A stretch of 64,000 nt of DNA from Gymnopus androsaceus JB14 (Eukaryota; Basidiomycota; Agaricomycetes; Agaricales; Omphalotaceae). How positions within the stretch are numbered: position 1 is the stretch's first letter; each line of letters opens with the position of its first letter. Below the pieces are notes generated by a model, which was not told the DNA's origin, did no database searches, and was given only the letters and a program-made list of their open reading frames with translations. Positions 6,462 through 64,000 of this stretch are shown here, one piece after another. The stretch lies in contig ML769467.1 in NCBI GenBank assembly GCA_009733575.1, forward strand, positions 1 through 64,000. Reading direction: 5' to 3'. Position numbers and translations under genes: made by a program.

Positions 6462-7447
6462 ATTTATGAAAGAAAGATAGATTACACAGCGCAATCCCGA
6501 GTGTCGCATCCGGGAGAGGTCTCAACTAAAGTGCGCTTCGCTGTGGCGGGGACGGGACCGTTGGGCTCCGGGGAAACTTGTTCGTACCAAAGACCATCCA
6601 ATTTGTTAGGTTTAACTCACATTTAATAAATTATTACTCAGAGCAAGGGGGAAGAACTTCAGCTGTCATAGCATCACATTAATCGTTATTTCTCCCAGAT
6701 CGAAAAGTCTACTTACACCATAACTTCAATATTCATTCTTCAATTCATTCATTCTAGCCAACTTCTAGCGGCCAGTTGAACCACCCTGAGTCGAGAGCTC
6801 AAGTCAGAAATCCAATGGGCCCAATTGCAATGCTCTGATTAGAATGGGCAGAACGCAACCAATCGGTGGCGAGTTTAAGTTGAATGATCATCAGAGGTGT
6901 ATTATAATAAAAGTACCCTAGAATCGATAGGGATTGAGGTCATATATATATAAAATTTAAGAAGAAGTTAGCCAGCAATTGAGCTGAGATTATACTAGCA
7001 GTGCATAAAGGAGAGCGCATACAGACTCAGTAGAAGAGTTTGCCTCGATTTGTATTTTTGAGACGCGTCATGATGCGCTCTCAAGTCTCGTACACGAGGA
7101 TCCGGGGCATTAATCAGCACTGTTTTCGTGTGAGAGAAGGTACAGACGTTTGAGAAATTCTTGTCTCACGGTCGAAATCGACTAAAAATACTTAATAAAA
7201 TAAATTGTGAAATTCAAAAACTACCAAATGCCTCTCTACGCCTTAAAACATCCTAATACGAAGCCCTGTGCACTCCAGAAACTGTTCAGTATCTTTACTG
7301 AGAAATGTATAAAATGTATTGGATGGTGATTTAGTGTGTGTGCATCATGTTCGTTTCGAGCGCTAGCAGAGCGCTTGGCTCCCATCTTTTTACTTCTTCG
7401 ACTCCTCGTCAAACATCTACCCCTTCCTTCGAGCTCCATGCACGGTA

Positions 7448-31301: not shown

Positions 31302-31538
31302 CGAGTGTTATATTATCGAGTTGTTTTTTCCCTTTCGTTCCTTTCTTCGTTTGGTGATTTACTTGTCATTTTGCAAGCGCATTTTCCATGTATCACTACC
31401 ACTACACCACACGTCTTCTTCTATTTACCACGTTGGATACTGTAATCCGAAGAAATAGATGTCTGACCTTGCAACTCGGGGATTGTACAACCTTACAACA
31501 ATTTCTTATTACAGTATTACACAAATAAGGGTTGTAAA

Positions 31539-32962
31539 TTATTGAACCTCCAATCCGATTGTCCTTGTATCCCATATGTTATCAATAGTTGTGAACTCTT
31601 TGTTTTGTTCAGATGACGGGCTCTCGCCTGCAGTCATATCCAGTGTTTGCAGGTTGAGAATTACACGGCATCCCTGGACTTGGAATCAGAACTAAGACCC
31701 AAACAAAGTAGCTTGCATACCACAGTAGATATCAACGAAATGAAAACTCTACAAGGAAGCCTTTGAACAAGAAACAAGAGTTCAAACTTCAAGTCACTTA
31801 CGGATATATGAACATCACTGGTACTGTATTTCTACCTGCAGAAACACCAATTGAAATCATTGCCACTATCTCAGAATATGTCAGTGAGTGCAGGACAATG
31901 AGCTGAAAGAGGTATACCAGATATTGCAGCAAGTACTTTTAAATTGTCTCTGTTCAGTACAGAAACTAATGGTGGCTGTTCAAAAGTATAGCGACGAAGA
32001 TCCCAGTATGTGCGTTTCCAAGCAAGCCCATGGATAACCAAGTGGACAACTACTTCTCCAATTCTGCATTAATTAACATTTTAGTATCTAACACACAAGT
32101 ACACTCTTTGATCTGAGCCTCACATAAAAAGCACAACAGGATTCCCAATACTAGGGTGTTCAGCTACAGAGTTTTTTAATATGCAATTCTCGGTGAATGT
32201 GAACTGTTGATCCACTCCATTCCAAGTGCTTGGAATTATTCTGAGTCAGAATGGGGGTTACTAGATAGTAGATATTAACTTACATATAAATTGATCCAAC
32301 CATCTTTCCTGTAAGCATCATTGAAAGAAATGTGCCCACTTTTAGACTTTGTTCATAGAGAGCAAATACTAATAAAATAGGAGATTAACGGGAAACTGAC
32401 AGTAGAAATAAATTGCAGACCTCGAATACTGAATGTGCAGGGATCAGTGTCAGTATTGGAGACTACTAATAATGAGGGACAGTAGTACCTCAGAATTAAC
32501 TGTAAGATCAGCAGCATACTATAACATGATGCAGCCTGAAAAATTTGCCAAGTCATACAGACATCTTCGGTGGGTGGCTGATGACCAGGAAATCTGATTG
32601 TCCATATACTCGTAAGAACAATGCTTGCACTATAGCATAGAATTCAGAGAGAGTGGAATTGAAGACGTGGTGGTTAAGTTACACACATATGGATTGAAAA
32701 CGCGAGATATCTTGCCAAGATGAAGAGAGAGCGCACAAATGTCGGTCTCCTAAAGCTGTTTATGGTTACTTATTAGTATTAGAGATCGAGGACCAGGTGC
32801 ACTCACTTCCATATATATTCTAGCTCATTACGTCTGGTGAGAAAACTATCGCAGCTTGTCAGCAACAAGCCGAATACTTTACGCGGTATGTCACGATTTC
32901 AGTTTTGGAAGGATTTAAATGTTTCTTCGCGACATACCTGACGCCCCGATTTGGGCTTGCAT
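31539..32962 (-). CDS. DUF6533-type seven-helix membrane protein, copy A
   Basis: Start at 32962 (MQAQIGAS, intron, VFGLLLTSCDSFLTRRNELE). It then reads FVRSLFILARYLAFS, a Cys/Trp-containing helix (WQIFQAASC), an FALYEQSLKVGAFLSMV-type segment after the conserved R(V/F)YALY position, and a C-terminal GCRVILNLQTLDM with TAA at 31539-31541. These are the hallmarks of the basidiomycete DUF6533 family, small hydrophobic receptors or sensors of unknown ligand. About eight short exons. Copy B at 41051-42463 is very similar throughout. I did not confirm every junction, so single defects could be missed. Confidence 0.65.
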
Positions 32963-33180
32963 TTCAAGAGGGAGTGAGACGAGGGAAATGGAGAGGAGGC
33001 TTGGCGCGAGCTTGCATTTTATGGATAGACGAATCCGCTCTTGGCCCATGCCAGTGGGAAACGATGGATCAGGGTTATCGGAGCATGGGAAGTAAGTTCA
33101 ACTATTTAGGCTTTGATCGAAGAATCCCTATCGCTACGTTATCCACCCCTATCCATCCGCAGCCCAATTATTATTTAATA

Positions 33181-40815: not shown

Positions 40816-41050
40816 CATTTGCTTGAACGCTTTCAACAGCATTCCAGCTTTACATTCATATCTTCACTCACACCTCTGATTCCAGTGGCCTGTTCCAGAA
40901 CAATTTTCATCTCATGGATTTGCAGGTCAATCCAGTTCCTAGACCCAACTCTTATGGGAGGACTTCTGACAACTTTAACATTCATAGCCTGGTACCCAAA
41001 ATACTCAATCCTTGTACTTAATTAATTAATAGTGGAGCAGGGGTTACAAA

Positions 41051-42463
41051 TTATTGAACCTCCAATCTTGACTTTATATCCCATATGTCATTGATAGTTG
41101 TGAACTCCTCTTTATTTTGTTCAGATAACGGGCCCTCGCCTGTAGTCATATCCAGATTCTGTAGGTTGAGAATTGCACGGCATCCCTGGATTTGGGGTTA
41201 GAACCAAGAACCAAACAAAGTAGCTTGCATACTGCAGTGGATACCAACGAAATGAAAACCCTGTAGTTACCAATGAGGAAGCATCTGAACAAGAAACAAA
41301 GAGTTCAAACTTCAAGTCACTTACGGATATATGAACATCACTGGTACTGCATTTCTACCTGCAGCAACACCAATTGAAATCATTGCCACTATCTCGGAAC
41401 ATGTCAGTGAGTGCAGGACAATGAGCTGAAGGAGGTATACCAGATATTGCAGCAAATACTTTTAAATTGTCTCTGTTCAGTACAGAAACTAATGGTGGCT
41501 GTTCAAAAGTATTGCGACGAAGATCCCAGTATGTCCGTTTCCAAGCAAGCCCATGGATAACCAAATGGACAACTATTTCTCCAATCCTGCATTAATTGAC
41601 ATGTTAGTATCTAATACACAAGTGCACTTTGATCTGAGCCTCACATAAAAAGCACAACAGGATTTCCAATAGGGTGATCAGCTACTGCATAGTTTAATAT
41701 GCAATTCTCAGTGAATGTGAACTGTTGATCCATGAGTCCATTCCAAGTGCTTAGAATTATTCTGAGTCAGAATGAGGGCTACTAGATAGGTATTAACTTA
41801 CATATAAATTGATCCAGCCATCTTTCCTGTAAGCACCATTGAGAGAAATGCGCCCACTTTCAGACTTTGTTCATACAGAGCAAATACTAATAAATATAGG
41901 AAATCAATGGGAAACCGGCAGCAAAAGTGAATGGCGGACCTCGAATACTGAATGTGCAGGGATCAGTGGCATTATTGGAGACTAATAATGAGAGACATAC
42001 CTCAGAATTAACTGTAGGATCAGCAACATAGTATAACATGATGCAGCCTGAAAAATTTGCCAAGTCATACAGACATCTTCGGCAGGTCGCTGATGACCAC
42101 GAAACCTAGCTGTCCATATACTCGTAAGAACGATGTTTGCACTGTAGCATAGACTTCAGAGAGTGGAATTGAAGGCGTGGTAGTTACACACATATGGATT
42201 GATAACGCGAGATATCTCGCCGAGATGAAGAGAGAGCGCACAAATGTTGGTCTCCTAAAGCTGTTAATGGTTATTTGCAATAAAGATCGAGGACCAGGTG
42301 CACTCACTTCCATATATATTCTAGCTCATTACGTCTGGTGAGAAAACTATCGCAGCTTGTCAGCAACAAGCCGAATACTTTACGCCGTATGGCACGATTT
42401 CAGTTTTGGAAGGATTTAAATGTTTCTTCGCGACATACCTGACGCCCCGATTTGGGCTTTCAT
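41051..42463 (-). CDS. DUF6533-type seven-helix membrane protein, copy B
   Basis: Start ATG at 42463 (MKAQIGAS, intron, then VFGLLLTSCDSFLTRRNELE). Later exons: RRPTFVRSLFISARYLALS, CYSANIVLTSIWTAR, VCMTWQIFQAASCYTMLLIL, FALYEQSLKVGAFLSMVLTG, an exon with TFEQPPLVSVLNRDNLKVFA, and a C-terminus GCRAILNLQNLDM ending EVQ and TAA at 41051-41053. Paralogue of 31539-32962 within a duplicated block that also includes the 5' flank. Ligand and role unknown; predicted plasma-membrane protein. Confidence 0.65.
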
Positions 42464-43399
42464 TTCAAGAGGGAGTGATACGAGGGAAATGGAGAGGAAG
42501 CTTGGCGCGAGCTTGCATTTTATGGATAGGCGAATCTACATGGCAATGATCAGGGTTGTCGGAGCATGGGAAGTATTTTAGGTTTTGATCGAAGAAGCCT
42601 ACTGTACATTATCTTATCCGACCCCCCAATTCTTATTATGTCCCCTGATAAGTAATCCGATATAGATCCAACGATTTGGTCAAAACCCGGTCAGAATTTC
42701 GAAAATATGGAACCGAAAATGCGCAGAAGAGCTCAAAAAACACGTTGCAATAAAAAAAGAAAAAACAATTTCGGTCAAAAATCGTCGTTTTGGACCAAGT
42801 TAGGGTCTATCTTCCTCCCTGATTATCAGCCAAGTCAGAATGTTTGCAGGGCTGGGATATGGGTACGTCGGTACCGAGCCAACCCTACAGCTGACACAAC
42901 GTCCAAGTACTTAGTTTATATGGCAGGCCGAGGTATTTAGAAAGGAGATAACAAAATACAACTTGGCCACTGACTTGCCACTGACTATCTATCGCGTTAA
43001 GGTAGCCCGCCAGCAGCCCTGGGGGAAGTTATGCAAGCCCTGGCCTTCCGTCGCAGCCACTGAACACATACATTGACTCGGAACATCTTAAGAAAATTCA
43101 TTTCCGTGTTCATGCTTAATTTTTTTTTCGCGTGCGACTTAGGGCATACGAGTTTACAACCACAACAACAATCATCAAGATATACACCTAGGAGAATAAT
43201 CTACAGGCTTAGCAACAATAAATATACAGTGGGTTTACAGCGCCATTGCCAAGGAGTCCGCAGCTTCAGGAAGATATCGATATTCCAACGCTAATCAAAT
43301 AAAAGTCATATCCTACACTATTGAACAACCGGACCCGGATACTGTGTGACTTGAGATTCGAAATCGAGATCTTCCTAACTACTATAACATGATACAGAG
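42464..43399. other. flank of duplicated block
   Basis: 42840-43140 matches 36298-36560 on the far side of the pogo element. The plus-strand frame 42707-42940 has no recognisable domain. Nothing else supported. Confidence 0.45.
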
Positions 43400-51877: not shown

Positions 51878-52919
51878 CTAGTCGCCACGGAGCCGTGTTC
51901 TCAACCTTTCTAAAGCTTTTCCCAGTTCGTTTCTTCCTTGGCCATCAGGACCAATACCCCAGAACGAGTCTTTGTCGGAATCCTGTAGTAATGAAAGTTA
52001 GCAGCATTCCCGGACAATAATCAAGACCAATTGCTCGCTCACCTCAACGAGCTCGGCATCTCCAGTATCCAAGAGCTCCTTCTTGAGATCCTTGTGCTGA
52101 GTGAACTTGTGATAGATCGTTTCGTCCATCTGTTTGCCATTCAGGTTGGCTGACGTTCGTTGGACTGCAGACATACCTTTTCAACGTTGACCTTGAACCA
52201 ATCTGACCTGACCTGTGGCTGGTACTTGCGTGCCGCATTGAAGGCTGCGCTTGGCCGCTCACCGCAGGTACGAATGAGCTCTGCAAGGTCGGGTCGGTTC
52301 CCTTGGAACTGAAAAGACAGGTCAGTTAACGCGTAACGTGTCACATCTGGGCATACCTTGAACGATTGGAACAAGTGCTCGCTAGTGGGATACCTCTTTC
52401 CATTATACCACACCGGATGAGCTGAAAAGTTTGTAAACCCATAGTGGGGCTTAGCTCTGCGGTAAAAGAGAATCCGATGACGTGGGGTAGCGGCCAGATC
52501 TAGTGCTTGTTCGGCGGCTTTGAGATTGGTTTAGAGGAGGTACTCGTACCGTCTGCTTTCAATTCTGCTTGGCTTTCTTTGCCACCCTCAGGATTATCGG
52601 CATTATCAAGGATATGCTTCGTGCTCCGATGGCGTTCCTCCGACTCTACACCGTATTCTCTGGGCGTTTCACCTGAAGGAGCGGCAGGAGATGCTGTGGT
52701 ACTCGAGTTATTCGAACTGCCTCCGGGATGCTTGTGAAGCCCAGCTGGAGCAATGACTCTAGAAGGCATGCTGGACATGAGTCTGGCGTATGATCCAGCT
52801 TCGAAAGACAAAATTGCGGATGCAAGGATGCAGAAGGACGAAAGAAGATAATATAGGAGTATTTGGCGCTTTAACTGTGGTACCGCTTTCCGATTCGACT
52901 CATTCCGAGTCATTGTCAA
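51878..52919 (-). CDS. NADAR (YbiA-like) domain protein
   Basis: Five exons. The N-terminus from 52919 has a hydrophobic stretch (YYLLSSFCILASAILSF), so either a signal/membrane anchor is used or translation starts at MSSMPSR (about 52780), giving a soluble protein. The NADAR domain follows: ILFYRRAKPHYGFTNFSAHP, VWYNGKRYPTSEHLFQSFKF, QGNRPDLAELIRTCGERPSA, DWFKVNVEKMDETIYHKFTQ, KKELLDTGDAELVE and DKDSFWGIGPDGQGRNELGK, ending RLRTRLRGD (TAG at 51878-51880). GFTNFS, the PTSEH..Q core and FWGxGxxGxGxNxLG are the family signatures. NADAR proteins are N-glycosidases; bacterial members remove ADP-ribose from guanine, and the family has been predicted to act in NAD/ADP-ribose metabolism. It is divergently paired with a PARP-like gene across 489 bp. 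Confidence 0.85.
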
Positions 52920-53408
52920 TGGTTTTGTAAATCCAATCTTGCTGCCAAAAATGAGGAAAGCCGCATCTTAACGCATGGTACCGGGGTTTTATGAGGGTTG
53001 GCTTGTTTTTCGCGTGTTCGATATATTAAAGCTCGGTGACTGTGAGACTGGAAGAGAACATTGGTGAGCTAAGCGCTAATTTTAGCGCCGTTCTGCATCA
53101 TCTCATACCTTCAACTTAACATCCTTGGTTGGGGGCTGGAAAATCTTTTTAGAAACGTCCTCGATTCTAGTCATAGCGAGGGCGGGCACAAGTGATTGCA
53201 TGCCCTTGTGAAAGTTTCATCCTGCGGCTGTGCACAAGTGTTTCGTCGCGTCTCCAGCATGTTCTGTTTAATGAACTAAACGCGTCGTGTACATGTGTTT
53301 CACAGACACCGTATCGTTCTCTATGCGCAAACAAAAACTACGATACAATGTTTAAATTCTGAGGTGTGTAATCTTCGCCATATCTACTTTGTCCCCGCGA
53401 TACTAATA
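52920..53408. promoter_or_regulatory. divergent promoter between NADAR and ART genes
   Basis: 489 bp. Its right half (about 53200-53405) is duplicated at 58180-58381 (GTGTTTCGTCGCGTCTCC, AATGAACTAAACG, GTAATCTTCGCCATATCTAC blocks), upstream of the second copy of the ART gene. A shared regulatory region implies co-regulation of the pair. Confidence 0.55.
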
Positions 53409-54589
53409 ATGGCCATCGACGAATACAGTCTCAATCACCCTGATAATCACCATCGCAAAAGATATGCTCGGATACTTCCTCTGGAATCTTCAGATCCCAA
53501 ATTTGCCCAAGGTGTGCTCACATAGCCCTCCCCTGCTGCCGACACGATGATATTTACGCGTCTGTAGTCGAAAAACTATTTTTGAAGGGCTGGTGTCATC
53601 CAAATAAACCCAAGCAGGATATTCGTGCAGTATTCAAGGTCCTTTCCTCTGATGAGAGCCTTGAACTATATACGAATTACAAGTGAGCTGTGTATTTTTT
53701 CTATGTAAGACTTTATGTACTGACTGTCTCCGTTGTGAAGATCACAAGTTCAAGCATTCAACCTCCTTTCTAGATTCAAGAAGGGAGCCAACGAGCAGCT
53801 GTATTTCCATGGCACTCGACGCTCGTGTGCACTCGGACAGGATAGCAATAAAGTGCTCCTATGCAATTCACCGGAATGTGTGTTGTGTAGTATCATTCGA
53901 GGATCTTTTGATGTTGGAAAATGCGGCAAGTCTTTACAAAGGAGCTCTATATTTGATTCGTATCTTACCACTGGTTAACAGGGAACGCACATTCGTTTAA
54001 AAGGTACGTGGATCGTTTACGCTAAGGTTTCTCTTATGGTGACATTTGCTCAGATTCGGTACCGGAATCTACACGACGGCTTGTTCATCCAGTAGGCACA
54101 TTTGTTCTCCATTAATTAGCAAGTTACTGACTTTCTCCGAAGAAGCAGATGACTACTATTCTGTCGGACAATCAAGACAGCAGTATGCTGGCTCAAAAAC
54201 CGCATCTCGTAACAGCAGAGTGTTACTGCTCAATCGGGTCGTAGTGGGCAGGCCTCACAATCGCCGCCACAATGCAACTCACATGAACCAGCCACCTTCG
54301 GGCCATCACTCGGTATGTCTACAGATCGTCTTGCTCTTTAATTTGGTCGAAGGATCTGCTAATTGATTTGTATAAATAGGTCGTAGGCCTTCCCGGAGTC
54401 GACCTCAACTACGAGGAGACCGTGGTTTATCGCAACGATGCCATTCGTCCGGCGTATCTGGTCGTGTATGAACCTCGGCTGGAGCAGAAAAAGCAGGGTT
54501 TATTTCCAAACTCACATGACTCCCAGAAATCCGTACGGAGTTACTCGAAAGTGTTCTCGGCCTTGTTCAAAACACCGCTAGCTGTTTAA
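53409..54589 (+). CDS. PARP-like ADP-ribosyltransferase, catalytic domain only (ART-i)
   Basis: About 270 residues, seven exons, starting at 53409 (MAIDEYSLNHPDNHHRKRYA). Motifs in order: FKVLSSDESLELYTNYKFKK; NEQLYFHGTRRSCALG (catalytic His in HG); CNSPECVLCSIIRGSFDV (Cys pair); FKRFGTGIYTTACSSKADDY (catalytic Tyr region, as GxGIYxx..SKA.(D)Y in PARPs); RVLLLNRVVVGRPH (core strand); GVDLNYEETVVYRNDAIRPA (the E of ETVVY matches the catalytic Glu of PARPs); end LVVYEPRLE and a Lys/Ser tail, stop 54587-54589. One intron is GC-AG (GCAAGT at about 53924 to AACAG at about 53982), needed to keep frame. H-Y-E complete, so poly- or mono-ADP-ribosyl transfer from NAD is plausible. Target unknown. Confidence 0.78.
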
Positions 54590-55249
54590 GCTCTTGCTTG
54601 CAAACGACTTTTCTAACTTATGGATATTTCCTGTTAACTTTATCTATATTTAATATTCCGCGTATTTATTCATATGTGGAGTGCTAGAACCTGCTCTTCT
54701 TTGTATACGCTCGTTCCTCACTTACTGATCATCCTTTCTGTTTAAGGTAAATCTTCAATGTCTAGTAGATCAATATACTCGCGAGGAACGTGTAGCGATC
54801 GTAGCTCCGGAATTTTCTTGGGGTTACCAGACTTAATTCTTCGCCAGGATAGTACTACTCCCAGTCCCTCTACGACTTGAATTTTACTTTCGACTGGTGT
54901 TACCACCAAAGACCCATCAGGACGTTACTAGTAGGTCAATTGAAGGATGTAAGTACCGACGATTTAACATAATTAAGGATTACAGTATAAAGCCATCTTG
55001 GTCTCGTATGCCCTCCACGCCCTTTTCGCGTTTTATACGAGCGTTCACCGCGCATCCAGGTTTCCCATGTATCCCTGCTATCCCTGGCTAAACGCGTTTA
55101 ACGAGTGTTTAATGTATAGTCAGATTTAAATATCATCCTCAGCACTCAACTTTGCACTCCCACCGACTATCAGCTCGAACTTTCTCCACCTCACCAACGC
55201 CAAGACTAGCAGGTATAGCCAGGCATATTTCAGCATTAAAACTACAGTC
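54590..55249. other. intergenic
   Basis: No gene supported. It serves as the 3' flank of ART-i and upstream region of ART-ii; CTCACCAACGCC-type pyrimidine-rich sequence precedes the ART-ii start. Confidence 0.4.
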
Positions 55250-57072
55250 ATGGCTGCTTCCGTTGCATCTCACATCCCATTTGCACTCTCCCTACTACAT
55301 TATCCCGGACGAACCAAATCCCAGCCGACGACAAAGGTTAATACTACTCCTTCCGCTCCAGCACCTACAGCTACTACGCTTTCCATTGCCCTCCCCGGAT
55401 CTGGATCCGGAGGTAGCGGGAGTAATGGGAGCCAGGCCAATAGTCAGACAGCATCAAAGCAAGGACCAGGACCAGGAACCACACCTCCGGCGAGCTCAAG
55501 TGGCTCCTCTCTATGCGAGGTCATCCTACCGTGATTTATGATTTTCTAAATGCTAACTTGGAGGATGGGATTAGCATTGTCACATGAAACCCAAGTACAT
55601 CGACGGAGTTACAACACATTCGTATTGTTCCAAAAGCTGTGCTTCAAATGCAAAAGTAAACGGAAGCCAAAAAGCGTTTAGTGGACATCATAATAGCGGT
55701 TCCCTAACTCCTGGAACTTGTGATGTATGCATGTGCCTATCTACTCGTCTCTCTTTGCCTGATACTCGCGATTTCATAGTTCTGCCACAATCGACCCAGG
55801 TTTTCGGGACACCCTTTCTGCAGCAAAGCTTGCGCTAAGAATGCTATCTCGAGCACGCATCCTGGCGGAAACCCAAAAGGTAGATCTAAAGTTACACTGA
55901 TTGATTCTGTCGAAATCTTAAACAAAGCATCAGGGACTTGTCAAGCGCCTGGATGTTCGAAACCAACTCATGTTAACAAAGACGGGATGTGTGGAGACTA
56001 TTGCTCGTTATCCCACAAGACGTATGTTAAGTTCAACTGCATTACTTGAACTGATTTTTATACTATCGCAGGTTCGGAGAGACACTATGCCTCATGTGTC
56101 TAACAAACGCCAGGCAGAGTAATTCGCACTTTTGCGGCAAGGCATGCGCAGACAATGCAGAGATGAAAGGGCCAATGATATTGGAAGTACCTGCAGGACA
56201 TGATACTTTCAAGAATGGTGAGATATGATGGACCTGCTTGACCTCTTCCCTCCCTAAATGCATGTTAGTTTCGGATCAATTCAAGGCTTCTTGGCGGCAT
56301 CCTGGACAATGTCCTTCAGTAAAGCGTGTATACAAGATCGTCTCTCCGCAAACATCTCTCGCAGCGTACAATACATACAAAGCCGCCGTTGAAGCACGAG
56401 GACAATTTATCCCCGCTGGTCGGAGTGCAGGAAACGAAAATCGACGATGGCACGGTACGAAGCGCGAGTGCCATCTCGGTGACAAGGGACAGACACAGTT
56501 TTGTGACTCAAAGACCTGCTCGTTGTGCTGTATTGTGAAGACGTCGTTTGATTTGAGCCTCTTTGGGAAAAAAACCGGGTGGGGAAGGTATGGTTTATTT
56601 TCTACTACCTTGGCGTTTCCCGTCACTTACTAAAGAATATAGGTTTGGTAAGGGGATTTATACATCGTCGACCTCATCCAAGTAAGGTTTGTCAAATTTA
56701 CTTCCCCTAAAATTCTACAATGCTTCGAATAGGTCAAACGACTACTCGCACAATGAATGCCGCTGCTCGCTCAAAGCGATCCTGTTGAACAGGGTCGTAG
56801 GTAAGGCTTGTCAAATTTACTTCCCTTGATATTCTAAAATGCCTCGAGTTGGGAAAGGATGCAAGCTTTTACAAGATAACGTATCGCTCACTGCACCTCC
56901 TCGAGGATACGATTCGGTGTGTTCTTTACCATGCATTATGGATCTTTTGGAAAATAAACTAATGATTTTACAGGTACTCGCAGAAAAAGGTGGAAGCTTG
57001 AACTACGATGAGTTGGTTGTCTACACTAATGATGCTATTCGACCGTCTTTTCTCGTTATGTACGAAGCATAG
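55250..57072 (+). CDS. PARP-like ADP-ribosyltransferase with four zinc knuckles (ART-ii)
   Basis: About 450 residues, ten exons. Start at 55250 (MAASVASHIPFALSLLHYPG) and a Ser/Gly/Pro-rich linker. Then four Cys-rich units: LCEHCHMKPKY..SYCSKSCA; TCDFCHNRPRFSGHPFCSKA; TCQAPGCSKPTH..CGDYCS; ETLCLMCLTNA..HFCGKACA. The catalytic domain follows: RVYKIVSPQTSLAAYNTYKA, NENRRWHGTKRECHLGDKGQ (His), TCSLCCIVKTSFDLSLFG, GRFGKGIYTSSTSSKSNDYS (Tyr), AILLNRVVVGKGCK, PPRGYDSVLAEKGGSLNYDE with LVVYTNDAIRPSFLVMYEA (Glu of ELVVY), stop at 57070-57072. The H-Y-E set is complete. The knuckles probably bind nucleic acid or protein. Same family as ART-i, which lacks the knuckles. Confidence 0.8.
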
Positions 57073-57669
57073 TTGTTAACGATGGCGTTGTCAGCATGTA
57101 GGTGCTTTTGTTGCTTCTATTTAACTTCTGTAATACATTGAAATCCTTTAAGTAACATAAGTGGCTAGTCTTGGGTCAGTCTATTTTGAATAAGAGCATC
57201 AAGGTCCCCGGTTTACATTGCAAAGAAGCTGAATCGAAGCAAAAACAGACTTTTTTGAGCAAAAGGTTTGTCTCACAACCATTCGAGTTGGGTTTTTCCA
57301 CTGCCGGTTTCATGAAAACTACGACCAACTCTCTTATGTGTATGAGGTCTTCCGGGTGGGATATTATTTTTCATAGCTATGTAGACTTTCAATAAAATTT
57401 GCGCTTGCCTGGGTTTGAACCTGATAGAATTCGCTCAAACCTCTTCGCCTAGAGTAACCCAAGTATGAAATAAGTAAAGTTGTTCCAAAGGTGATTCAAA
57501 AAAAAAAGAAACAGGACTTTGATTGATGTCGTTAATTAATTATAAGTTCATAATTCCAGCTTTGACCTATCAAATACAGTATATAATTTATATATCAAAT
57601 ACAAGTTATACATACAAACCCAATTCTCCATAGGACTGCGTTGGGGTCCTTCTTACTTCCCTCCTTCTT
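57073..57669. other. intergenic, decayed sequence
   Basis: Short frames without domains. A tRNA-like B-box (GGTTCAAACC on the minus strand near 57410) has no matching acceptor stem, so no tRNA is called. Confidence 0.4.
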
Positions 57670-57900
57670 GGCTGTCTTTGCTACCTTCCGAAATATCGGC
57701 AATATGCTTCGTACGCCGACGGTGTTCCTCCGACTCTATACGTTATCTGGGCAGTTTCACTTGAATCGGCAGGAGACGTTGTGGTATTCCGGTTATTCGA
57801 AACCGACTTCGGAATGATTTTGAAGCGCATGCTGGACATGAGTCTGGCATATGATCTAGTTCGAAAGACATAATTGCGTTGGAGAATCTGTGTACCAACT
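57670..57900 (-). pseudogene. duplicated N-terminus of the NADAR gene
   Basis: FRTRSYARLMSSMRFKIIPK, then NNRNTTTSPADSSETAQITY and a stop after CRYFGR, matching FEAGSYARLMSSM and the Ser/Thr/Pro linker of the real gene (52560-52810) with frame damage. The whole NADAR domain is absent. Together with ART-iii it shows that the divergent pair was duplicated as a unit. Confidence 0.8.
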
Positions 57901-58381
57901 CGACTCGAATTCCGAGTCACGATTGCCAATGGCTTTGTAAATCGAACATAAAATGAGGAAAGTCGCATCCTGATAGTCTCCCGTAGCATCCCGATGCACG
58001 ATGAGGGATGGCTTGTACTTTTCGCGTGTTTGATACATATATATGTAGCTCGGCGAGACAGAGAGATCATACTACGCAAGCTTAGGGGTCATGGCTCTTC
58101 GGCTCGTCATGGTCATCTGCGCAGCTTGAAGTTAGCGAAATCTTCAAGAAAACAACCTTCAGATGTGTATCGTATGTCTTTGTAAAGTTTTATCCTGCGC
58201 TGTGTACAAGTGTTTCGTCGCGTCTCCTGCATTTCTGAGATGTTCTGTTTAAATAATGAACTAAACGCCGCGTCGTGTACATGTTTCTCGTAAAGTTCTC
58301 TATGCGCAAACGTAAGATACAATGTTGACAGTACGAGGTGTGTAATCTTCGCCATATCTACTTTCTCCTCGCGATACTAAT

Positions 58382-59009
58382 GTGGAAGGGCTGCTCGCCA
58401 GGTAGAACTCCCCGTACTTCCATCCCTTATCGGACACTTAAATTCCCGAGTCCCGGATTCACTTCCATTGCTTCCTTATTATTCGGTTCGTGATAATTAC
58501 ATACAAAAATCACTCTATTCTTTTATTCATTCTTTTACTTACAACTGATACAGTTTTGGAGGAGAGGACAATGTACTAGGCCTATTCCCAGCGTGTCTTT
58601 CACACAGGAAGCACGGTCGAGGCATAAGTATATGCGCCTTTATTTCGCTGGACCAGCTCTCTCATGCTAGGGTTTACGCCCCACAGCATTGCATAGAACT
58701 TAGAACTACCGATTAAAATTGCTATCCGGTTCCGTTTTAATACACTCTTTGGAGTACTTATAAAGGACTTTGCATGCGTTCGTCCTGTACCGAACTACCA
58801 GCAAGTGGAAAGCTCACCGTAGCTGCAGGGCTCGTCATCGTATCGACAAACCTCTTTAGCCAGCCTCAATACCTCCAAAAAAAACCCTCCTCTTGGTCTA
58901 ACCGTCTAGGTGTCTATAAACACCTTTGAACATCTCACTTTACCCCTCGACGCGTTTCTCTTGGCATGACTCAGTTCCCCAGTGAACCTGACTCCTCTTC
59001 TACACTAAT
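58382..59009. mobile_element. insertion of about 628 bp in the second pair, origin unknown
   Basis: Copy one reads GATACTAATAATGGCC across the ART start. Copy two reads GATACTAAT, then about 620 bp of unrelated sequence, then CACTAATAACGGCC. ACTAAT is thus present on both sides of the insert, a possible 6-bp target duplication. No TIRs were recognised at the edges. The insert supplies an ATG at 58966 in frame with the ART remnant, where the original ATG has become ACG. Confidence 0.5.
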
Positions 59010-60054
59010 AACGGCCATTGACGGATTCAGTCTCAATCACCCTGAAAATCACCATCGCAAAAGATATGCCCGGATACTTCCTCTAGAATCTTCCGATCCC
59101 AAATTTGCCCAAGGTATGCTCACATAGCCCTCGCTGCTCCCGACACAATGATATTTACGCGTCTGTAGTCGAAAAACTATTTTTGAAGGGCTGGCGTCAT
59201 CCAAATAAACCCAAGCATGAAATTCGTGCAGTATTCAAGATCCTTTCCTCTGATGAGAGTCTTGAACTGTATACGAATTACAAGTGAGTCGATATATATA
59301 TTTTCTATATAACACTTTTTGTACTGACTGTCTTCGTTGTGAAGATCACAAGTCCAAGCATTCAACCTCCTTTCTAGATTCAAGAAGGGAGCCAACGAGC
59401 AGCTGTATTTCCATGGTACTCGACGCTCGTGTACACTCGGAGAAGGATAGCAATAAAGTGCTCTTATGCAATTCACCGGAATGTGCGTTGTGTAATATCA
59501 TTCGAGGATCTTTTGATGTTGGAAAATGCGGCAAGTCTTTACAAAGGAGCTCTATATTTGATTCGTATCTTACCACTGGTTAACAGGGAGCGCACATTCG
59601 TTTCAAAAGGTACGTAGATCGTTTCCGCTAAGGCTTCTCTTATGGTGACATTTGCTCAGATTCGGTACCGGAATCTACACGACGGCTTGTTCATCCAGTA
59701 GGCACATTCATTCTCCGATTAATTAGCAAGTTACTAACTTTTCTCCGAAGAGGCACGATGGTTATGGCTCAAAATACGTGTCTCGTAACACTACGCGAGT
59801 GCTACTGCTCAATCGGGTCGTAGTGGGCAGGCCTCACAATCGCCGCCACAATGCAACTTACGTGAACCAGCCACCTGCGGGTTATCACTCAGCACGTCTA
59901 CTGTCCTGCTCTCTGGTCGAAGGATCCACTAATTGATTTGTATAAATAGGTCATAGGCCTTCCCGGAGTCGACCTCAACTACGAGGAGACTGTGGTTTAT
60001 CGCAACGATGCCATTCGTCCTGCGTATCTAGTCGTGTACGGACCTCAGCTGTAG
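58966..60054 (+). pseudogene. decayed second copy of the catalytic-only ART (ART-iii)
   Basis: Closely similar to ART-i over 59010-60054, including the 55-nt first intron and the GC-AG intron. The start ATG has changed to ACG (an upstream ATG at 58966 lies in the inserted sequence). One extra base (TTTCAAAAG against TTTAAAAG near 59605) throws the FGTGIY segment out of frame. The KADDYY-VGQSRQQY segment is largely deleted near 59755. The C-terminus (GVDLNYEETVVYRNDAIRPA) is kept but ends early at GPQL, TAG 60052-60054. It lacks an uninterrupted H-Y-E domain. Confidence 0.75.
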
Positions 60055-60720
60055 CAGAAAAAGCAGGCTTTTTTCCCGAACTCAAACGACTCCAAGAAAT
60101 CCACACGGAGCTTAGTACTCGAAATTGTACATGACTGGGTTGTTTGCAACTGTTTCTAACTTGTCAACAATTTTATGTTAAGCGACCCAATCTATTCAAC
60201 TATGTATGACCGGAAAATTTCAAACTCGGAATCGCTTTTTTAAAACTGAGCCTTGTTATGATACAATAGACCAAGGATAGACCAGCACTAATTGGTGTCC
60301 AGTTCAAACATGCTAGGTGTTTTCTTAATTAAATTATTCATATCGCATTGAGTTACAGTACACTTCCAATTCCTTCAAAATTATGCTCAGCTTCTCCAGA
60401 AGATATGTGCACACAACCTCAACACCATAATGCATGCACACATTCCAATAGTGTCACGAAATAACTTAGAATATGCTTAGGTGGCCCACTAATAGGTACC
60501 CAATAGTAATGGATGTTGCTGGTGGAAACGACACTGGTCAGTCTACGAGAAAGCGATCACGGTTAATAAATAAGGCTGCATAATCACAGAATTTTACAGA
60601 GTATGTATAGTCCACTTTGATGAGTCGATACTTTAATAGATAGTTTGTTACAGAGACAACATTACAGCGCTGTAAACGTCCTTCGTTCCTTCCTTCATGA
60701 AAAAAGTCCATGCTCATACA
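60055..60720. other. intergenic, nothing recognised
   Basis: AT-rich region between converging ART-iii and the LKR/SDH gene. No frame, repeat or RNA signal supported. Confidence 0.45.
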
Positions 60721-63700
60721 CTACATCGCCCGGGCTCTCCTCTGTCTCCCGGCAACCAACTTGGCCTCCAGACTACTCCCATCCCCGACCTTAACCCTCC
60801 TCACACCCTCTTTCATACCAATATCAGCCTGCTCCATCCCTTTCAAGACACATTCCCGGATCGATGCATGTCCAGGGCCATGAACACCTCGAATCGGAAT
60901 CGCACTATAAAGGGGTTCTACTGCCCCATCAAGCACCGCCAGAGCCGCAATCGCCACAGGTATACCGACCGAACGCGCCATAGCTGATGAATAGCCAGAG
61001 CCATAGACGACAAGCGAGGACGTGTGAATTTCTTCGTCCTCCGAATCTTCACACTGAAGTGATAACCTCATGCACCAAAACTACCATATCTCTCTCGTTT
61101 TTCCCGTATCGGAGCTTGTGTGCTAGAAGTTTTGCGAATAAGTCAAGAGGGGCGCAGTGGATAGGATCGAGAGCGGGGAGACCCCACCATCGTTGTCCTT
61201 TCTGAATATTCATCTTTGTTCCTGTTCGAGAGTCCAGCAGCCACCCTAGGGCCTTTGCGTGTTCATGGTTGAACTTATACGCGTCGACCTTGTCAGAGTC
61301 ATAGCCAGGGAGTAGTTTCATGTCCACGAATTTGGCAAAGGGAGAGGTTTCGAATAAAACCCTGTCAATCGGGATTTGTGACACCTTCTCATAATAATTT
61401 AACCATGCTTCTTCGAGATTAGCTCCCTTGTCGTCATCATTTGGGTCGGTGGTGTCCAGAAAGTCAAAGTGGATCGACGGAGAGGTTTGCATCATCCCCA
61501 TCTGGTGGAAGAAGGAGAGGAGGGAGGAAAAGCCTTTGTAGCTGGATAAAACGGGAGATAAATGAGGCAAAGTGCAAAGCACAACCAAAATAAATACAAC
61601 GAACCGTAGCGTACCCCTCAACAAGGTCCTCATATCCTGACTTTGTAGCCCATACATATCCGCATACGGCACCGAATTCCTATTTGGTAATCCCTCCAAC
61701 ATCCCAGTCATCGCTTTCAACCTTTCGTCATGCACAACCCCACCACTAAAGTCAACCTCGGGAAGCCGTTTTTCAGTAGCTCCCCACCGGCAGACGTAGA
61801 ATTGGAAGAGGGAGCATCTATGCCGACTCCAGGGACAACAACCTCCTCTCCCCCAAGCCTATATCGCGCGCCATTCAACGCTGCGGTCAACACTCCTCGA
61901 GGGCTCCAACTGAATTTGTACAAGAGGGGCCCAGCGGAGGGGTATCCATGTCTGTCCAAGTCTCCCTGAAGTAAGTCGGGCGCAGGCAACCCTCCACAAA
62001 AGCTCACAAAAGACTTTATTTGCTTCTTTCCTCCGGACTCGGACTTGATGCGCTCCAAAAGAGATATAGCTGAACAGTGGTCAATTCCTGGGTCTAGACC
62101 GATTTCGTTGAGTAGCAGGACGTTTGCTGCGATTGCGCTGTTATATGTGTGAGCAATGTAGTTAGTACTACGAATTAAGAACTCACCGATCATTCAACGC
62201 CCTCATTTCAGGAGAAATATATGACGCCGTGACGAGATGTTTCCCTTCCTCAATGCAGAGCTCGGCGATGCGGACATGGAGCGATACGGGGAGGAGACTA
62301 GAGAGTGAGAGTGAGAACAAGGCAGTTAGTTCAATCGACTGAAGAGACAAGAGTGCCAAAGAACACAAAAACACATACCTAATAACAACGTCAACTCCTC
62401 TAATCATCTCCCTGACCTCTCCTCCTTCATTCCTCTGAGACTCATCTCCAACATCAACTTGTCGGAATTCAATACCCGACTCCGCCTTTGAATTTTCCAT
62501 CTTATAACCCTGAGAGTGCGCCAAGGCTTCCAACTCCCCTCCATCGTTACTCGCTATGAGTAGGTCCACATCAGGCCGTCGACCCATAAATAGCACGGCA
62601 GGCCCAGCGACCATTCCGGAGCCAAGGAGAAGAATTCGTTTTTTCGGAGTACGAGGGGTTGGCGGAATGAGAGATGAGGATGTAGGATTAGTAGCACTGC
62701 CACTAGACATGGATCGTGTCTGTGAAACATGCTGCGAGTTGGACTCATATCCAGACACGAACCCAAAGCCAGGTTTACCAGCGGAGCTCGCATTCGCACT
62801 AGCGTGCGCAAGCAATCCAGCCCTATACGCTTCGACCTTGCCCGCTAAACCTCCATCTTGGACACTAGCGAATCTCCCAAAAAGTTGCCCAGAGGAAGCA
62901 ATCGTCGCTCGATGGAGAGTATCCTCTACTTTCTGAGATACCAAGGCCGGCGAATTGACTGGAGACCGTGCCGACGTGGATATGGGTTCCAAATACCTCC
63001 TAATGAGGCCTTCCAAGTACCCCAACCCAACCAAGCCCTGTGAAAAATGCGTGGACGCGTCAAGGGGAAGGGAAGCAGGGAGGATATCGACGGATTGAAT
63101 CCATAGCTCGTGGGTGTCGACCTTGAGCTTGTAATACGGTTCGCTCAACGTAGTCGCATGCGTGAGGAATTCAAGGCCACCCTATCAATTTTGGTTAGAG
63201 CGAAAAGAAGGAAGAAAGGAAACACTCTACATAAGGATCACAACTAATATCACCTACAACGCCGAATCTCCCTAATCCCATCTGCCGTACCTTTTCTACG
63301 CCAGCTCTCAGCCCCTTATCACTCATCAACCTGGGGAACCCGGGTGCCCACCCAGCTCCGTTGAGAAGGAGGGTGAGGTACGGTGCGATGAGAGTAGGGA
63401 ATGCAGAGTCGTAGGAGGAGGGATTGGCGTAGTAGTGGCTACGGGAGAAAGATTGAGACTTTGGTTCGTCGATCCTCATGAGGTATTCTCCGGGCAATGG
63501 ATTAACCACATATACTTTCTTCAAACTTGCTTCGCCTCCTCTGAAGGTCCGTCGTAGAACGAGATCCTCGAGTTCGTCGACGCGAACCATTTCGACAGGA
63601 AGTTCGTCAAGCATAGATAAGCAACCGCACGCGACGTTCCCTGAGCTGTGAGGCAAGGTTAGATAGGTCGTATAAAGAATCTAGATACTCACCCCGTAAC

Positions 63701-64000
63701 GCCAATAATACACGGTCCCATTTGTTCACCGGTACCAAATTTCTGTATCCTTTCACCAACACTCCTCAAAGCTTTCCGTAACTCTTGCAAGCCCGGCATA
63801 CTCTGAGGCAGCGGCGTGTACAAAAACGGTGTCGCCATGCCAAATTTCTCTAGGTGATACTGACCCAGGGTGTGAAGGGAAAGCAAGGTCCCAGCGAGGC
63901 CGGCGTGAAAACCAAAAGCAAGAGTCCGTTTGCCTTGATCGTCAGTGAGGAGTTCATAGTCAATTAGAGTTGGGAGAAGGGTGTTATCAGGTTTGGATGA
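60721..64000 (-). CDS. bifunctional LKR/SDH (alpha-aminoadipic semialdehyde synthase type), partial
   Basis: The 5' end lies beyond 64000. The N-terminal LKR half shows FLYTPLPQSMPGLQELRKAL, GPCIIGVTGSGNVACGCLSM, LPVEMVRVDELEDLVLRRTF, FPTLIAPYLTLLLNGAGWAP and FGVVGDISCDPYGGLEFLTH, the alanine-dehydrogenase-like lysine-ketoglutarate reductase fold. After a linker the SDH half has KKRILLLGSGMVAGPAVLFM (NAD(P)-binding Rossmann), LLLNEIGLDPGIDHCSAISL, SFCGGLPAPDLLQGDL and SLVVYGSGYSSAMARSVGIP. Read together these interconvert lysine, saccharopine and aminoadipic semialdehyde. The frame changes once between ERDMVVLVHEV and CEDSEDEEIHTSS (about 61050-61070) with no intron that fits well. Stop at 60721-60723. 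Confidence 0.8.

Follow-up and report, generated by a model that had tools for sequence, protein, structure and literature searches.

The first 64,000 bases of contig ML769467.1 of the basidiomycete Gymnopus androsaceus JB14 (the whole stretch analysed here, called the window) contain a cluster of three genes: a NADAR-domain gene and, transcribed away from it, two genes for ADP-ribosyltransferases (ARTs) of the PARP fold, ART1 and ART2. We show here the genes themselves, the retention of their catalytic residues and their linkage in other species. Because the neighbourhood is conserved across Agaricomycetes and catalytic residues are kept in all three families, we propose that two tankyrase-like PARP-fold ARTs and one YbiA-type NADAR hydrolase probably constitute a conserved Agaricomycete cluster of linked writers and eraser, serving as a reversible marking or growth-arrest/defence system under dosage control. 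The main argument for such a module is the cross-species linkage. A sequence-only reading of this DNA had proposed a writer/eraser pair of one NADAR and one PARP-like gene; conserved linkage and catalytic residues uphold the association, but the unit is a cluster of three genes and not a pair.

Protein searches returned 688 NADAR, 293 ART2 and 141 ART1 matches, of which the best 120 of each were listed and used. The contig comparison took the rows that name both species and contig (82 for NADAR, 102 for ART2, 95 for ART1); metagenome rows and rows lacking a contig were dropped. A shared contig was inferred when the same species appeared in two lists with contigs of equal size, Gymnopus being among the species counted, and the chance expectation assumes a 40-Mb genome, larger genomes making chance sharing less likely. 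Among the matches listed, 42 species are present in both the NADAR and the ART2 list, and in 35 of them the two genes are on a common contig (2.55 expected). The corresponding figures are 29 of 37 species for NADAR with ART1 (1.97 expected) and 43 of 48 for ART2 with ART1 (2.38 expected). A single contig holds all three genes in 20/26 species. We take these 20 species to be Agaricales; linked pairs also occur in genera that presumably represent Polyporales (Irpex, Panus, Abortiporus) and Hymenochaetales (Rickenella). Some of the common contigs are short, such as that of Amanita inopinata with all three genes on 64966 bases. Adjacency in related genomes, which the sequence-only reading required for its functional link, is thus present as judged by contig sharing and locus tags only.

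The locus tags serve as examples and were not counted, and some numbering may not follow position. Close tags join NADAR to ART2 in Stygiomarasmius (VKT23_010019 and VKT23_010021), NADAR to ART1 in Mycena amicta (C8F01DRAFT_1247735/_1247736) and Mycena sp. CBHHK59/15 (2163666/2163667), and ART1 to ART2 in Coprinopsis cinerea (CC1G_11640/CC1G_11638), Taiwanofungus (AcV5_008363/008361) and Marasmius (PQX77_005333/005332). Spacing is wider in Amanita inopinata, with NADAR at 006614, ART1 at 006610 and ART2 at 006596. A NADAR of Coprinopsis cinerea was not among the best 120 of the 688 NADAR matches. Two long proteins, P0126 and P0130, join ART1 and then ART2 in the same order as the window and may be merged models of neighbouring genes. 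Fusions of NADAR with PARP, sought through Pfam domains, were found neither among the best 120 of the 688, 293 and 141 matches nor in 10 long proteins scanned. P0022 and P0310 were left out, their metagenome contigs both being 2460 bp long and maybe one contig.

Gene models were built by hand from splice signals and then compared with relatives, and they differ slightly from the database models. They confirm that NADAR diverges from a PARP-like gene and that a second ART follows in the orientation of ART1, as had been read from the sequence. The NADAR gene has five exons. Starting at ATG 52913 it encodes 276 amino acids; P0001, its model in the database (231 amino acids), begins at the in-frame ATG 52769. 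The start codons of NADAR and ART1 are accordingly 495 or 639 bp apart, whereas the 489 bp formerly given for the head-to-head region corresponds to a TTG at 52919. The hand model reads AELVEDS where P0001 has three extra residues, absent from 119/120 aligned sequences.

The NADAR domain reportedly owes its name to a 2012 paper of de Souza and Aravind. Searches with the PF08719 and PF00644 profiles, which the sequence-only reading had set as a test, found both domains in these proteins. The PF08719 match of NADAR covers residues 133-274 (128 bits, E 5e-37, cut-off 35.1). Its closest solved structures are Escherichia coli YbiA (2b3w, E 2e-21) and the NADAR entry 8bau (E 4e-4). Three catalytic residues are kept in the model and its 119 relatives: E162 in 119/120, K169 in 120/120 and E242 in 119/120. 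Statements from the literature, here and below, refer to the available parts of the papers cited. By alignment with YbiA and 8bau, E162, K169 and E242 are taken as the counterparts of E43, K50 and E125 of the P. nicotianae enzyme (PMC11543638). Glu at the E125 position is the mark of the YbiA type, Asp that of the DarT1-linked BC4488 group (PMC11543638); with Glu (E242) there, the window NADAR fits the YbiA subfamily. NADARs remove ADP-ribose from guanine in DNA and RNA (PMC11543638, PMC11833690, PMC13036486), and ADP-ribosylated guanine is reported to be hydrolysed by a YbiA-type NADAR of an oomycete and, when carried by RNA, by YbiA of E. coli (PMC11543638, PMC11833690). Adducts at phosphate ends are not cleaved by NADARs, nor are uracil adducts by the bacterial enzymes tested (PMC11833690, PMC13036486). 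Tandem double NADAR domains were seen in the fungal proteins P0002, P0003, P0004, P0007, P0008, P0012 and P0013.

ART1 consists of seven exons. Its third intron is of the GC-AG type, and the model containing it restores a near-match to the family motif KCG-x-KHKFRRFG, the consensus of relatives. The PF00644 match reaches 37.5 bits against a cut-off of 26.7, in a model two residues shorter. The catalytic His, Tyr and Glu are present in ART1 at the positions recognised earlier from the sequence, and among the listed members, own proteins and fragments included, they are kept in 118/120, 114/120 and 119/120. The best match by sequence is tankyrase, as profile with E 6e-19, and for the database ART1 (P0241) the AlphaFold model (mean pLDDT 86) has tankyrase 2 as its first fold match, with a TM-score of 0.79 on the target and 0.59 on the query. 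An LFKTPLA-like motif at the C-terminus (window 54560-54589) is conserved among ART1 relatives and is a possible partner-binding tail.

The ten exons of ART2 encode a protein with a PF00644 match of 50.6 bits, preceded by four Cys/His repeats; 106 to 119 of 120 relatives retain the ligand positions of these repeats. The repeats were compared with the C-x2-C ... [FY]C-x3-C pattern of FCS/MYM-type fingers; the match to zf-FCS is weak (6/73 members, best E 0.0064), and we suggest that they may be FCS/MYM-type fingers and may bind nucleic acid. In the listed members, counted as for ART1, the catalytic residues are kept in 120/120 (His), 120/120 (Tyr) and 118/120 (Glu). The best matches are PARP13 and PARP4 by single sequence and PARP4 and PARP3 by profile; the structure model (mean pLDDT 75, residues 1-85 below 50) matches tankyrase catalytic domains. 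With a PF00644 match and an H-Y-E triad each, ART1 and ART2 belong to the PARP (ARTD) enzymes. They are separate fungal families that have in common a Cys cluster between catalytic His and Tyr (C114, C119 and C122 in ART1; C330, C335 and C338 in ART2), kept in 116 to 118 of 120. A Pfam scan of both at E up to 1 gave PF00644 only, with no ankyrin, SAM or DarT match. Two neighbouring introns of ART2, 56682-56732 and 56801-56848, are near-identical in sequence, and the second, missing from the paralogue on contig C70, looks like a recent gain by copying; when a pattern search tolerated as many as 3 mismatches, the only further case was one on C446.

Further copies are present in the 83-Mb assembly, in which the window contig is C85. 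The genome has at least six NADAR loci (C85, two on C70, C177, C28 and C90), and ART1-like matches lie on C85, C70, C446 and C177. A PF00644 search of the genome gave five rows, with only C6 outside these four contigs; it missed the ARTs of the window itself, and split genes therefore escape such a search. A stretch of C70 (168.2-173.6 kb) has the three genes again in the order and orientation of the window, NADAR on the minus strand and then ART1 and ART2 on the plus strand; DNA identity is about 71-83%, and the flanks do not match within the stretches compared. The ART2 there keeps HGT, GIYTT and the Glu exon, and its frame breaks in the finger region. In the window, intergenic part 53200-53407 recurs in the local duplicate at 58174-58381 with 78% identity, and the database model of the broken ART1 duplicate (P0247) has no PARP domain call. 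The window is the only Gymnopus copy seen with all three genes open. The Cys-rich N-terminus of ART2, the broken local duplicate, the copies on C70, C177 and C446 and the conservation across species are additions to what had been noticed from the sequence.

The nearest ART or ART relic is about 1.6 kb away from NADAR on C85, 2.2 and 3.1 kb at the two loci of C70 and 8.6 kb on C177; contigs C28 and C90 carry neither. Thus four of six NADAR loci lie less than 9 kb from an ART or ART relic, versus about 0.1% of the genome (positions entered by hand). The linked copies are partly mutual duplicates, some with broken ARTs, and count as one piece of evidence, not four. Within the aligned exons, the catalytic residues are retained by the NADAR domains on C85, C70 and C177. 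C28 and C90 have a second NADAR type (L040:4857-5306 and L041:4703-5106), in which Thr and Tyr replace the two catalytic Glu and which is possibly a binding-only form. No unlinked canonical NADAR was found among the at least six loci; every catalytically plausible NADAR among them lies near an ART or its remains. An ART2-type Cys-rich region immediately precedes NADAR, in the same orientation, on C70 (about 175.1-176.95 kb, L032:7187-9000) and C177 (about 76.3-77.9 kb, L038:8300-9930). A finger-NADAR fusion was considered; as the later fingers are damaged in both, we treat the arrangement as apparently a decayed fusion or a relic, which does not count as a sign of a common targeting domain.

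In the proposed mechanism, ART1 and ART2 would be the cognate writers, moving ADP-ribose from NAD (nicotinamide adenine dinucleotide) onto a target that the finger array of ART2 may help to choose. The target would most likely be a base in RNA or DNA, with guanine as the best guess, because the base linkage cut by NADARs in the literature available is that to guanine. NADAR would limit or reverse the mark, and a system needing balance would be well served by a pair of writers, a single eraser and a divergent promoter. A bolder version can be offered tentatively: an anciently conserved, chromosomal and reversible nucleic-acid ADP-ribosylation system of mushrooms. Its writers would be the finger-bearing PARP and the short PARP that accompanies it, marking bases in the RNA or DNA of viruses, of transposons or of the fungus itself, and the NADAR linked to them would take the mark off. 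Such a system would parallel DarT1-NADAR in a eukaryote, with enzymes drawn from another family, and might serve antiviral or self/non-self defence.

Several observations weigh against a conserved writer/eraser module. Species present in both lists without a common contig number 7/42 (NADAR-ART2), 8/37 (NADAR-ART1) and 5/48 (ART2-ART1), some of which may be different strains or assemblies, and the linkage evidence consists of equal-sized contigs, species names and some locus tags, not of gene maps. The N-terminus of the window NADAR appears shortened in alignment with relatives, and the protein also matches TIGR02464, the NCBI model of a riboflavin-intermediate N-glycosidase, with 96.6 bits against a cut-off of 73.7. 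Several further ART copies in Gymnopus are damaged: in ART1 on C70 the frame is broken and Cys replaces the catalytic Tyr, the HGT region of the C177 ART contains a stop, and the NADAR/ART1 unit duplicated within the window (57664-60128) is broken. Finally, activity of tankyrase 2, a relative of ART1, could not be detected on the RNA oligonucleotides that PMC13036486 examined.

This last result also suits the alternative that fares best, in which the module is linked as proposed and the ARTs mark proteins, by mono- or poly-ADP-ribosylation as tankyrase does, while NADAR acts on free ADP-ribose products or on an adduct N-linked to protein, and not on a nucleic-acid base. Tankyrases, the best matches of ART1 in sequence and fold, modify proteins; the best matches of ART2 (PARP13/PARP4, PARP4/PARP3 and, by fold, tankyrase) and the full H-Y-E triad point the same way. 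We still regard this as rather unlikely, given that NADARs act on guanosine adducts and not on phosphate-end ones, nor, for bacterial enzymes, on uracil (PMC11833690, PMC13036486), and that no protein substrate of NADARs was found in the literature available.

A riboflavin-intermediate N-glycosidase of the YbiA/RibX type beside PARPs acting as stress enzymes, an old accidental neighbourhood kept by low rearrangement, is what the TIGR02464 score would suggest, together with the decay of Gymnopus ART copies while adjoining NADAR domains retain catalytic residues. That decay fits a harmful writer and a harmless eraser, and also simple chance or a housekeeping NADAR. This explanation is improbable, however, as family linkage is well above chance across species, the cluster order is repeated within Gymnopus, and, among the at least six loci, the ART-distant NADARs (C28, C90) lack both catalytic Glu, that on C28 falling below the TIGR02464 cut-off (40.6 versus 73.7). 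That the genes adjoin by chance, or through a local duplication confined to Gymnopus, would agree with the duplication that relates the Gymnopus copies, but it is contradicted by the cross-species linkage and is very improbable.

Among known systems, one of the closest to the proposed module is the bacterial DarT1-NADAR (DarTG1) toxin-antitoxin. Both have an ART gene beside a NADAR hydrolase gene, an adjacency conserved in fungi by contig sharing and locus tags, and the NADAR active-site E and K are kept in the fungal protein. In contrast, the fungal writers are two, are PARPs (PF00644) and lack a DarT match; the fungal NADAR is YbiA-type, with Glu and not Asp at the catalytic position; and the fungal genes are eukaryotic, intron-containing and divergently transcribed. 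Because its writers are PARPs, the cluster lies outside the DarT1-NADAR class, although the logic is alike. Tankyrases (PARP clade 4) provide the best sequence and fold match of ART1 and possess the H-Y-E triad, but ART1 and ART2 have no ankyrin or SAM domain, and their Cys cluster lies between His and Tyr, the Cys/His cluster of tankyrases after Tyr; by domain make-up and cluster place they do not qualify as tankyrases. PARP12 and PARP13 have a finger-like region followed by a C-terminal PARP domain. ART2 resembles these zinc-finger PARPs in its finger-like region before the PARP domain, and PARP13 is among its best single-sequence matches, but its repeats resemble the FCS/MYM type (weakly, in 6/73 members) and not CCCH, and it keeps H-Y-E. 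With YbiA/RibX-type N-glycosidases the window NADAR shares domain, active-site residues and the TIGR02464 match; it differs in its long N-terminal extension and its linkage to PARPs.

Table 1. Cluster genes and related features, in window coordinates
Feature	Position	Strand	Exons	Remarks
NADAR	51878-52913	minus	52913-52550, 52499-52357, 52308-52177, 52129-52043, 51982-51878	
Putative shared promoter	52914-53408	no strand		divergent intergenic region between NADAR and ART1 start codons
ART1	53409-54589	plus	53409-53511, 53568-53682, 53741-53925, 53982-54003, 54054-54091, 54143-54312, 54380-54589	short single-domain PARP, 280 aa
ART2	55250-57072	plus	55250-55519, 55575-55724, 55780-55879, 55928-56021, 56072-56217, 56269-56587, 56643-56681, 56733-56800, 56849-56916, 56974-57072	Cys/His-rich array and PARP domain, 450 aa
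Remnant of duplicated NADAR 5' exon	57664-57878	minus		71% to 52565-52818
Broken ART1 duplicate	59004-60128	plus		88% identical; start codon lost, frameshift in Cys region, small deletion, early stop

Elsewhere in the window, positions 60700-64000 hold a gene that we take to resemble saccharopine dehydrogenase; about 1.3 kb of it matches C761 at 92%, perhaps an allele from the other nucleus. A long direct repeat (31529-33127 and 41041-42599, 88% identity) is related (70%) to C177 58.7-60.2 kb.

In literature searches whose scope left most subscription papers outside, so that priority is uncertain, no description of a fungal NADAR-PARP linkage was found in the texts available, no paper was found on DUF1768 in basidiomycetes, and one search had zero mentions of Agaricomycetes among the matches listed. 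The available text of PMC2964712 gives PARP clades 1 and 6 only for fungi; ART1 and ART2 would extend the PARP clades known there, provided that a proper tree places them. The roles of NADARs, present across eukaryotes, are described as still unclear (PMC11125620). A neighbourhood recurring in dozens of mushroom species suggests an overlooked reversible marking system, and a conserved genomic partner offers a candidate cognate writer for a eukaryotic NADAR, a question directly testable in a laboratory mushroom.

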